Shown here piece by piece: positions 17,881 to 57,875 of a DNA stretch of 64,000 nt. The DNA comes from Pyruvatibacter mobilis (GTDB lineage Bacteria; Pseudomonadota; Alphaproteobacteria; CGMCC-115125): NCBI RefSeq assembly GCF_012848855.1, contig NZ_CP051630.1, positions 413,501-477,500 of the forward strand, in the 5' to 3' direction. Under the pieces are notes generated by a model that was not told the DNA's origin, ran no database searches, and was given only the letters and a program-made list of their open reading frames with translations. Each line of letters opens with the position of its first letter. The stretch's first letter is position 1. Both the position numbers and the translations under genes were made by a program.

Positions 17881-17899
17881 GTAAGACGGCTACAAGATC

Positions 17900-18052
17900 A
17901 GGGCTGCCTGGTGCGCCAGGAGCCATATTGCTCGGGGCCTTACGGTCTCCTAGGGAGCTGTCCCTGCCTCGGCCCGTGGGCTGGGGCATCACGGCGCCCA
18001 CCTACTTATGTAGGTTCCCGGGGATCTCCGCTCCAGCGGCCAAGGCGGCCCT
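17900..18052 (+). ncRNA. ssrS: 6S RNA
   Basis: A roughly 153-base element between zapA and the 5-formyltetrahydrofolate cyclo-ligase gene, the classical 6S RNA locus. The ends pair: AGGGCTGCCTGG at 17900-17911 with CCAAGGCGGCCCT at 18040-18052 (one bulge, one G-U). Internally it folds as a long, interrupted hairpin with a central bubble region, the shape that mimics open promoter DNA and captures the housekeeping RNA polymerase. Exact 5' and 3' ends are estimated from the stem. Confidence 0.82.
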
Positions 18053-18085
18053 ACCTTGTATCCTTCTTCCTCGAAGTCCTCCGGA

Positions 18086-41778: not shown

Positions 41779-41927
41779 GATGTGCTCCTTCCGGTTGGTG
41801 TGAGCCTGGGGGAGTAACCGGGGGCGGGCGGACATGTTCCGACGGGCAGGCAGTTAACGGCCCGGTAGGCACGGCAAAAGCTTCATTTGACCTTTGAGGG
41901 GGGCTCGCCTATGTACGGCGCGGGCCA

Positions 41928-41964
41928 CGCTTCCCCAACGAAGCGCGACCCTCTGCAAGGAGGG
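41928..41964 (+). promoter_or_regulatory. serC-type RNA motif (tandem hairpins over the RBS)
   Basis: Two adjacent hairpins just before serC: CGCTTC/GAAGCG at 41928-41933 and 41940-41945, and CCCTC/GAGGG at 41949-41953 and 41960-41964. The second buries the GGAGGG ribosome-binding site ten bases before the ATG. This matches the description of the alphaproteobacterial serC leader motif (tandem hairpins near the serC start), a candidate cis-regulatory RNA. Confidence 0.7.
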
Positions 41965-41973
41965 AGATACACC

Positions 41974-48371: not shown

Positions 48372-48490
48372 GGCGCGTCCGGAAAGTGAACCAGTCCAGT
48401 CCGCAGCATGTGCGGGCGGTGGCGGGGGGTCAAATAACGGGTGGGTGAGGGGTTTTCGCGGGGGGCAAACGGAGTCACACTGCGGGCGTT

Positions 48491-50593
<2,103 letters not shown>

Positions 50594-50596
50594 GGG

Positions 50597-51337
50597 CTAA
50601 AAGAGTTCTTGCTGTGCCATTTCATCGACCCGGAGAACGCCTACAAGAAGCCATTGATCACTTCTCTTGCTATGCGTTCCTAGTGCGAAGGCTATGCCCC
50701 GCGACGCGTATTCGTTCTCATACGTTTGCTTGAGCGACTGCAGCGCTGCAGCTTCTCCGTAGGCCTTGCGTCTCCTGAAGAATGCGGCTGACGTCTCCCA
50801 ATCATCACATGTATGGGTATGTGTTTTGCCGTCGGGACTTTGCCATTTGAAACAAAACTCGAATGGACATGGTTCGACCGGTTTGACGTCGTTGTTATCG
50901 AACATGGAAAGCTGGTTTGCGAGGGCGGCGTGACGGATGCGCTCCTGCGCAATTGTTGTGCTGCTCTTCCTGCTCCAACTCAAATTTACATCAGCTGGTC
51001 TGATGAGCGTAAGGGACTCTCCGCGCGACGCAGCTTCTTCCGTACTTTCTCGAAACAAGGGCGCGACAAACCGTGCTCTCTCGTTGGGTGTAAGCTTGCC
51101 GACGACTCTGATCGACTCGGGAATTGCTTTCTGGCTTTCTTTCCTCCGATCATCCGAAGGAGGTACGTATGAGTACTTTATCCAAGACCAGCGTGCGAAC
51201 CTTTGATCATCTTGGAGTATTCGGTACGGAACCGGGTATTGCCGTCTCCACTTACGGTCCAACCCAACGCCGGCACAGCAAACCGTCTCAAAGTAGCGGC
51301 TGCTTCTATGTGGGAGCGCTTTAACTAGCACTACCAC
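50597..51337 (-). CDS. Conserved protein of unknown function paired with DUF488
   Basis: A protein of about 246 residues, not recognised as a named domain. Its N-terminus, V-V-L-V-K-A-L-P-H-R-S-S-R-Y-F-E-T-V-C-C-A-G-V with R-R-Q-Y-P-V-P-Y-R at 31-39 and W-S-W-I-K-Y near 50, resembles a widespread family that I recall as often adjacent to DUF488 genes. The middle is charged; C157, C162 and C177 are scattered. The start is set at GTG 51337, just after the DUF488 stop; a TTG at 51418 would overlap DUF488 by 68 bases. Base composition is AT-richer than the chromosome around it. Confidence 0.6.
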   Translation of the reverse strand: MVVLVKALPHRSSRYFETVCCAGVGLDRKWRRQYPVPYRILQDDQRFARWSWIKYSYVPPSDDRRKESQKAIPESIRVVGKLTPNERARFVAPLFRESTEEAASRGESLTLIRPADVNLSWSRKSSTTIAQERIRHAALANQLSMFDNNDVKPVEPCPFEFCFKWQSPDGKTHTHTCDDWETSAAFFRRRKAYGEAAALQSLKQTYENEYASRGIAFALGTHSKRSDQWLLVGVLRVDEMAQQELF

Positions 51338-51350
51338 ATGATCATTGCTC

Positions 51351-51809
51351 TTACGCTGCGGCCCTTTCAAGGCGACGTACTCCGAGGTGTCGAGTCTTTG
51401 TGCACAACCTAGACTCAACTATTTCGGATACGATCTTGCGGTGGCAAGTCTTTTCGTCTCGCTCATAGCAAAGCAAGCAAACGCTTCTTCCAGATGCGAT
51501 CGAAGAGATCCTGTCTATCCCCTCTTTGGCGCTGTTTGATCTCAGTACACCATTGAAGACCCGGCGAAACTCTTTCCAGTCGCCGCGGCGTGCGGCGTCC
51601 CGACCCTGTTTTGGGTCTCCCAACTCTCTTAGATGGATGTACTCAATCCCGGCATCTGCAAGCGCCTCGCTTAAAGCCGTCTTGGAGAACCCCTTTCGAC
51701 GGGACTGAGCGCGCTCACGTATATCAATAAGCACTTCGATCCCAGCTTCACGCATCGTCGAGATGAAGTCCTCCAAAGAGGCGCCTTCGTAACCAATCGT
51801 GCTGAGCAT
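51351..51809 (-). CDS. DUF488 family protein
   Basis: A 152-residue protein with the DUF488 pattern: T-I-G-Y-E-G-A-S-L-E-D-F at the start, V-L-I-D-I-R near 27-32, G-F-S-K, Y-I-H-L-R-E-L-G-D-P-K, and V-C-L-L-C-Y-E-R-D-E-K-T-C-H-R at the end, whose Cys/Glu/His residues look catalytic or metal-binding. The biochemical function is unknown. It is immediately upstream of the partner gene, forming a two-gene unit that looks foreign by composition. Confidence 0.82.
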   Translation of the reverse strand: MLSTIGYEGASLEDFISTMREAGIEVLIDIRERAQSRRKGFSKTALSEALADAGIEYIHLRELGDPKQGRDAARRGDWKEFRRVFNGVLRSNSAKEGIDRISSIASGRSVCLLCYERDEKTCHRKIVSEIVESRLCTKTRHLGVRRLERAAA

Positions 51810-51972
51810 TGTACTTCCCCGGCCAACTCAATTGTATGGAATGGCCAATTAGTTAACAAAAAGCAACCGTGCGGCTCTGGTGGGGTGGCTTGGTACGTTT
51901 TCGCGCTTGTCAAAATCGGCAAATCACCTCAGCCTCAATGGCGGTTTCAACGTATTGAAAGGAGGTGATCCA

Positions 51973-52053
51973 ATGTCGAGTGTCACGCAGCGGGGCTTTG
52001 GGTCCTTGTCGGTCGCGGGTCTATTTGGGGCAGCCTCTGAGGGGGTCCGCTAG
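51973..52053 (+). CDS. 26-codon ORF with a near-perfect extended Shine-Dalgarno
   Basis: Begins at ATG 51973 and encodes a 26-residue peptide, M-S-S-V-T-Q-R-G-F-G-S-L-S-V-A-G-L-F then G-A-A-S-E-G-V-R, ending in TAG. GAAAGGAGGTGATCCA at 51957-51972 is complementary over about 16 bases to the 3' tail of alphaproteobacterial 16S rRNA, far more than any other gene here. The frame stays open for 12 codons past the TAG (P-E-V-L-L-A-L-G-F-P-P-R, stop at 52090-52092). A terminator follows. It could be a leader peptide, a tiny protein or a ribosome-engaging RNA. It is not an artefact of a larger gene. Confidence 0.55.
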   Translation: MSSVTQRGFGSLSVAGLFGAASEGVR

Positions 52054-52101
52054 CCGGAAGTGCTTTTAGCCTTGGGGTTTCCACCCCGCTGAAGTCACGG
52101 G

Positions 52102-52142
52102 AAAGGGCCGTGCCTGGCAGAGCGCCGGGGCGGCCCTTTTTT
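52102..52142 (+). terminator. Terminator after the 26-codon ORF
   Basis: AAAGGGCCG at 52102-52110 pairs with CGGCCCTTT at 52131-52139, with further pairing possible inside, and is followed by a six-T run. It ends a short transcript that would include the small ORF, or acts as an attenuator before the methyltransferase gene 32 bases downstream. Confidence 0.8.
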
Positions 52143-52173: not shown

Positions 52174-52752
52174 ATGGGACAGGCACAGCCGCTTCCCGCC
52201 GCGCTGGAAGCCATTGAGGCGCGCGCGGCAGCACTAGGCTTTGACATGAATTCCGACCGCGAGGTGGGGCGTCTGCTTGCAGCGCTTGCCGCGTCAAAAC
52301 CCGGCGGGCGGATGCTGGAGCTCGGCACCGGCTGCGGGCTGGGCGCGGCCTGGCTGCTGCACGGGATGGATGCGCAGGCATCTCTGCTCACGATTGATAC
52401 TGATGAGACGGCGCAGGCCGTGGCGCGCGACACGCTGGGTGCGGACGGGCGGGTGCGGTTTCTGCTTGAGGATGGCGGCACCGCGCTGGCCCAGATGGCG
52501 GCTGCTGAATTCGACCTCATTTTTGCCGATGCCTGGCCGGGCAAGTTCTCCCATCTCGATGAGGCGCTTGCCGCGCTGGGCCCCGGCGGGGTTTACGTGA
52601 TCGATGATTTGCTGCCCCGGCCCAACTGGCCGGACGGGCACCAGGCCAATGTGGACCGGCTGCTGGCGGACCTGGCGGGGCGGGACGGATTTGTCTTTGC
52701 GCAGATGGGCTGGGCCACCGGGGTGGCGATGCTCGTCAGGCAGGCGGCGTAG
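52174..52752 (+). CDS. O-methyltransferase-like SAM-dependent enzyme
   Basis: A 192-residue class I methyltransferase. The SAM-binding motif M-L-E-L-G-T-G-C-G-L-G is at about 50-59, the acidic end of the second strand is T-I-D-T-D, and F-D-L-I-F-A-D and G-P-G-G-V-Y-V-I-D-D-L follow. It resembles catechol-O-methyltransferase-like proteins; the acceptor is unknown. ATG 52174 has TGGAGG four to nine bases upstream. The 3' end overlaps the convergent membrane gene by 17 bases. Confidence 0.8.
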   Translation: MGQAQPLPAALEAIEARAAALGFDMNSDREVGRLLAALAASKPGGRMLELGTGCGLGAAWLLHGMDAQASLLTIDTDETAQAVARDTLGADGRVRFLLEDGGTALAQMAAAEFDLIFADAWPGKFSHLDEALAALGPGGVYVIDDLLPRPNWPDGHQANVDRLLADLAGRDGFVFAQMGWATGVAMLVRQAA

Positions 52753-57800: not shown

Positions 57801-57875
57801 GGCCCCTTCGTCTAGCGGTTAGGACGCCGCCCTCTCACGGCGGAAGCAGGGGTTCGAGTCCCCTAGGGGTCACCA
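57801..57875 (+). tRNA. tRNA-Glu (anticodon CTC)
   Basis: A 75-base cloverleaf. Acceptor GGCCCCT pairs with AGGGGTC (one G-U), the anticodon stem CCGCC/GGCGG encloses the loop CTCTCAC with anticodon CTC, the T-arm has GGTTCGAGTCC, and the CCA end is encoded. No tRNA neighbour. Confidence 0.96.

Follow-up and report, generated by a model that had tools for sequence, protein, structure and literature searches.

The locus described here lies in a 64,000-nt stretch of Pyruvatibacter mobilis DNA (the window, whose coordinates are used throughout) and raises the question of why an ORF of 26 codons, encoding the peptide MSSVTQRGFGSLSVAGLFGAASEGVR, should directly follow a Shine-Dalgarno (SD) sequence, GAAAGGAGGTGATCCA, that complements the alphaproteobacterial 16S tail UGGAUCACCUCCUUUC at each of 16 bases. 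A preliminary description had noted this match, the ORF with its TAG, an extension of 12 codons and a run of six T, all of which were confirmed position for position. Below we ask what kind of gene this is, whether it is translated for the sake of its peptide, and what else translation could be doing for the RNA.

Layout of the element

Taken together, the extended SD, the start, the 26 codons, the TAG and the strong terminator support a stand-alone RNA gene of about 200 nt (Table 1). Past the TAG exactly 12 codons are open before a TGA at 52090-52092. A simple terminator scan missed the hairpin of the window; folding predicted a strong stem ending in the T run. This terminator, together with an end-to-end match to the Rfam model RF01867, lends weight to the earlier suggestion of a self-contained RNA of 180-200 bases. 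The CC2171 RNA of Mesorhizobium huakuii is a 215-nt RNA-seq product (PMC5596092), and by analogy the window RNA would be expressed as a discrete small RNA. A consensus sigma-70 promoter scan of the element found no promoter; in the putative promoter listed in Table 1, CTTG and CAAATCACCTCAGC are kept in the sister genomes, and other lineages have TTGAC and a -10-like box at a spacing that, judged by eye, is similar.

Table 1. Observed and predicted features of the element, in window coordinates
Feature	Position	Strand	Basis
Putative promoter (TTGTCA, 17 nt, CAGCCT)	51907-51935	+	Inferred; weak sigma-70-like
Predicted transcript, about 200 nt	51942-52142	+	End-to-end RF01867 match at 51949-52136; terminator; M. 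huakuii analogue
Extended SD, 16 bases complementary to the 16S 3' tail	51957-51972	+	Pairing and class-wide conservation
26-codon ORF, ATG (at 51973) to TAG (52051-52053)	51973-52053	+	Frame and stop kept in 152 + 20 relatives, amino acids unconstrained
P1 helix, 5' strand: GTG (51980-51982) and CAGCGGGG (51988-51995)	51980-51995	+	Codons 3-8; family-wide covariation
P1 helix, 3' strand: CCCCGCTG (52084-52091) and CAC (52096-52098)	52084-52098	+	Directly 5' of the terminator
P2 hairpin with CAGC tetraloop, near the ORF end	52024-52041	+	Covarying 7-bp stem in 25 elements
Intrinsic terminator, long G+C-rich hairpin and six T (52137-52142)	52100-52142	+	Folding; 151/152 relatives have a terminator

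The predicted pairing between the SD and the 16S tail amounts to -28.4 kcal/mol, compared with -17.1 kcal/mol for the best candidate start among ORFs of at least 150 aa and -18.0 kcal/mol for the best of 4000 random 22-mers. The tail sequence to which the SD is complementary is that of the S. meliloti 16S 39-mer (GGCUGGAUCACCUCCUUUCU..., PMC6943124). No other site in the 64-kb window matches 10 or more contiguous bases of the SD, which is also the sole match at up to one mismatch in the 3.33-Mb genome; a repeat or mobile element was rejected on the strength of this single copy.

Relatives across the Alphaproteobacteria and in Rfam

Two congeners conserve the segment at 86-87% over about 240 bp, and in four other families of the class there are weak matches with the same order of extended SD, NTGTC start, short ORF and terminator. 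The exact pattern was found in 60 of 135 Alphaproteobacteria genomes and in 0 of 263 genomes of other Pseudomonadota, with a reversed-pattern control giving 0 in all groups scanned; when two mismatches were allowed, it was present in 80 of 289 genomes of the class, nearly always as one copy each. A scan of species genomes returned at least 119 stretches, and among the matches listed almost all titles were alphaproteobacterial, spanning Sphingomonadales, Rhodobacterales, Hyphomicrobiales, Caulobacterales, Acetobacteraceae and others. Family elements occur once, sometimes twice, per genome, and one genome has two paralogous elements (L006 and G015:C1:2922049-2922069). An element with a 20-codon frame was also seen on a contig labelled Gemmatimonadetes (L015, 7832-7852), which would be either a mis-binned alphaproteobacterial contig or a transfer. 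Within the SD, the class scan showed GATC to GGTC as the most frequent change, one that retains a G-U pair with 16S; as the elements were mostly gathered through the SD pattern, conservation of the SD is not an independent result. The pairing energy and the relatives across the class bear out the earlier impression of an exceptional SD joined to a conserved short ORF.

Several of these loci are assigned by Rfam to RF01867 (CC2171), a Caulobacter sRNA without an assigned function, and the earlier remark that no described element fits was wrong: RF01867 covers the same loci, described only as a non-coding sRNA. Against the window the model scored 30.5 bits, below its gathering cut-off of 75 (E 9e-5 in 451 bases; E 1.6e-4 genome-wide, where the element is the best match of its genome), and the window copy is a divergent relative, not a formal member. 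The alignment covers model positions 1-159 of 159, the 5' block CAACAAUCGAAAGGAGGUGAUCCAGUGUC matches almost fully, and the terminal intrinsic terminator that the model expects is present; in the closing helix several model pairs are non-standard, and P1 (8+3 bp) is suboptimal. The SD probably contributes most of these bits, so the comparison was extended to other parts of the element, and the window was found to have ATGTCGAGTG, a GGCARCCTY hairpin near the ORF end and, ahead of the terminator, TCACG in common with a diverse subfamily. Outside the SD, start, P1 and P2 the sequence is hypervariable, the 20 nt past the stop being about 40-59% conserved within lineages. Matches to RF01867 occur in 69 of the 289 class genomes, largely at the same loci, and only 9 of these 69 lie above the cut-off, which means that the Rfam threshold recognises only a small part of the family.

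An open frame without a conserved peptide

The frame led by the SD is at least 14 codons long in all 152 distinct elements. Its length varies from 14 to 59 codons (sd 5.3, none below 14), whereas the first stop in frames +1 and +2 falls anywhere between codon 1 and codon 99 or beyond, and in the 20 held-out elements it measures 14-31 codons throughout. The position of the stop is fixed within lineages (29/31 sphingomonad-like, 16/16 rhodobacter-like and 9/9 Bradyrhizobium-like elements) while TAA, TAG and TGA interchange at it. The ratio pN/pS, counted without a tree, is 0.87-1.25 in four lineages, and changes are even over the codon positions with no third-position excess. Because the stop stays in place while its codon type swaps, and yet pN/pS is about 1, the frame seems, on these sequence comparisons, to be under selection for being translated and not for the peptide that it encodes. 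In other words, open frame and stop are kept relative to the other frames, as in a translated ORF, but pN/pS is not well under 1, as it would be in a functional small protein. No NCBIfam match to the family peptides was found, and a conserved peptide was rejected on this and on the pN/pS values.

Amber read-through into a longer small protein, one of the functions proposed in the preliminary description, was also rejected. Instead of a conserved TAG with a conserved downstream frame, the stop of the sister species is TAA, with an indel in the bases that follow directly, and the 12-codon extension is not conserved.

A separate observation concerns an Azospirillum (L083, 6757-6950) and a further genome, G133 (L152, around 1501, reverse strand), where the same extended SD precedes a frame of 57-59 aa with a signal-peptide-like part and a Ser/Thr-rich tail, which sets these two apart from the other family members; NCBIfam gave no match.

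Structural elements of the RNA

A terminator hairpin closes 151 of the 152 elements, about 174 nt after the SD, with a median of -26.7 kcal/mol. In the helix that we call P1, the first codons pair with a segment just before this hairpin. Among 65 representatives, one per sequence cluster, the cognate segments pair at -19.5 kcal/mol and permuted ones at -14.7 kcal/mol (z -12.2), as against z +0.6 for an adjacent control segment; the hold-out set gives z -5.7. These values refer to a duplex between the two segments, since single-sequence folding fails to recover P1 in several lineages, including that of the window, where the minimum-energy fold prefers local hairpins over P1 and has a stability of only z -1.4 relative to shuffles.

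In one subfamily, to which the window element belongs, a second helix, P2, lies near the end of the ORF; it is a covarying 7-bp hairpin capped by a CARY loop, and its outer pairs are of several types among 25 elements. In addition, complements of an element's own SD are over-represented in the RNA body (mean z -0.94 +/- 0.16; controls -0.33 to +0.08). The enrichment is moderate. The complement lies inside the ORF in 49 of 64 elements, where 37 would be expected, and its end precedes the stop by a median of 12 nt, although in the Rhodobacterales-like lineage it lies after the stop; in the window the best complement is at 52024-52039 and overlaps the P2 hairpin. One element (L075) has, 112-125 from its SD, a near-literal copy of the 16S tail, CGGATCACCTCCG, which could pair almost perfectly with that SD. 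On average about half of the SD and start is unpaired in the predicted folds, and sequestration is not uniform. P1 and masking of the SD cross, and would therefore have to be alternatives or form a pseudoknot.

Genomic neighbourhood

No neighbouring gene was found to be common across the lineages. The order in one congener is thiC, the element, a convergent rpiB-like gene, a methyltransferase gene and msrA, and in a second congener rpiB likewise lies between the element and the methyltransferase gene; it is because the rpiB-like gene is missing in the window that the methyltransferase gene adjoins the element there. The slot between thiC and the RNA gene holds different cargo in each species and looks like a defence hotspot: the window has a PDC-M19A/B-like candidate defence pair, consisting of a DUF488 protein and a 273-aa protein (50597-51809, minus strand), one congener (G001, L003 2-1471) has a DRT8-like reverse transcriptase, and G003 has nothing. 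The window also contains a 6S RNA (17898-18055), a serC leader (41918-41969), a TPP riboswitch upstream of thiC (48487-48597) and a tRNA-Glu (57801-57875).

A proposed ribosome-gated switch and its alternatives

What persists across the family is recruitment of ribosomes, a short translation of fixed extent and folding that translation would undo, while the peptide and most of the sequence do not persist; the simplest reading is therefore that the state of the RNA is set by ribosome loading. We consider a ribosome-gated RNA switch to be the best explanation, with a probability of about 0.4, and the statistics suggest that what the RNA responds to is the very fact of ribosomes reading it. It can be hypothesized that available ribosomes keep the RNA open: the SD is occupied by 30S subunits, P1 and the segment that masks the SD are unwound as translation proceeds, and a ribosome that has come close to the stop leaves the SD accessible to its successor. 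If initiation were to fail, or if free ribosomes ran short, the RNA would close, with P1 formed and the SD masked, and the closed form would have a different fate, either in its stability or in the presentation to a partner of segments that are otherwise covered. The peptide would then be a by-product. We infer every stage of this scheme, from transcription at the locus and translation in cells to the gating and any consequence that it has. More doubtful is the wider proposal of a class-wide sensor of free ribosomes or initiation capacity, in which the masking of the SD competes with 16S rRNA and the state of the RNA switches with translation of the mini-ORF. In an orphan sRNA family of the Alphaproteobacteria, selection that seems to act on translation and not on the encoded peptide sets the one apart from the other and gives CC2171 a concrete function that can be tested.

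One alternative is that translation only stabilises or recycles a trans-acting sRNA, with ribosomes on the SD shielding its 5' end from nucleases while some other part pairs with mRNAs. RF01867, the founder of the family, is listed as an sRNA, which fits this account, as does ribosome loading with a neutral peptide at a pN/pS of about 1; we nevertheless think it unlikely, because hypervariability outside the SD, start, P1 and P2 leaves no class-wide seed, and a stop at a constant place would not be required if protection were all. The preliminary description had also thought of a ribosome sensor or a decoy, both of which our findings support as possibilities. As a decoy or sponge, the SD would titrate 30S subunits or, in the manner of Caulobacter CrfA, CCUCC-bearing sRNAs such as those of the alpha-R8 / SisA-D family. 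The pairing energy of -28.4 kcal/mol favours this, and the alphaR8 sRNAs carry UUUCCUCCCU and are targets of the CrfA sponge in Caulobacter (PMC12559287), but the conserved GATC after GGAGGTG fits 16S and not the core of alphaR8, a decoy could do without a fixed stop, an open frame and a start codon kept at constant spacing, and titration of 30S subunits would require very high abundance. We regard it as distinctly unlikely.

A small mRNA for a functional micropeptide would account for the strong SD, the maintained frame and stop, and short common starts within lineages, such as MSH or MSS. It is difficult to reconcile with a pN/pS of 0.87-1.25, with peptides that are completely different between lineages and without an NCBIfam match, and with conserved residues that coincide with the RNA helices, and it is accordingly improbable. 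The preliminary description had listed a leader peptide for the methyltransferase gene (at 52174). Such a leader, or an attenuator, was suggested by the position of the element directly upstream of that gene in the window; a leader would be expected to keep one downstream gene in its transcription unit, but the convergent rpiB-like gene intervenes in the sister genomes, the terminator is strong, and neighbours vary by lineage so that the family has no common downstream gene. Synteny already refutes such a leader, short of a recruitment specific to the window, and we give it very little credence. Finally, the minus strand of the SD, TGGATCACCTCCTTTC, resembles the end of 16S, which would suit a chance SD-like string or a displaced minus-strand fragment of the 16S 3' end. 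This origin is refuted by the class-wide conservation of the SD with start codon, ORF, P1 and terminator attached, and by exact matches in 0 of 263 genomes of other classes.

Comparison with known systems

Among the closest known systems is RF01867 itself. Its loci and the family described here alike have a CAA-rich 5' end, the extended SD, NTGTC and a terminator, and the model contains a helix similar to P1, which joins the start region to the segment ahead of the terminator. RF01867 is annotated as a non-coding sRNA, whereas the family has an ORF under stop constraint and a complement to its own SD. In the literature searched we found no mention of the ORF, the stop constraint or the SD complement of CC2171, and literature on CC2171, RF01867, SD-like sRNAs and ribosome decoys gave no functional account of CC2171. 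From ribosome profiling in Caulobacter, Schrader 2014 reports translation of two RNAs that had earlier been predicted as ncRNAs and that the main-text passages leave unnamed. What is already known, then, is the family as a non-coding entry in Rfam, and what is new is the ORF with a fixed stop and a neutral peptide, P1, P2 and the complement to the RNA's own SD.

Short RNAs with a small translated ORF are also represented by rnTrpL / peTrpL of S. meliloti (PMC10117765) and by Pos19 of Rhodobacter (PMC5036791). However, rnTrpL is leaderless and linked to the trp genes, and Pos19 is a specific RpoE-dependent small coding RNA, while the present family has an extreme SD, no gene attached and a peptide that is not conserved. 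The CrfA sponge of the SisA-D (alphaR8) sRNAs resembles the window RNA in having a segment able to pair with CCUCC sRNAs, but the accessible part of PMC12559287 describes no translated ORF in CrfA, and the complement in the window RNA fits 16S better than alphaR8. Lastly, the extended SD sites of S. aureus (PMC13009471) share with the window element a pairing to 16S that reaches beyond the canonical SD helix. Those sites belong to ordinary genes, whereas the present SD leads into an RNA whose product seems to be of no consequence. In Caulobacter, 75.4% of genes are without an SD (PMC4117421), and the extreme SD of this family, unlike that of the S. aureus case, occurs in a class where many genes lack an SD.
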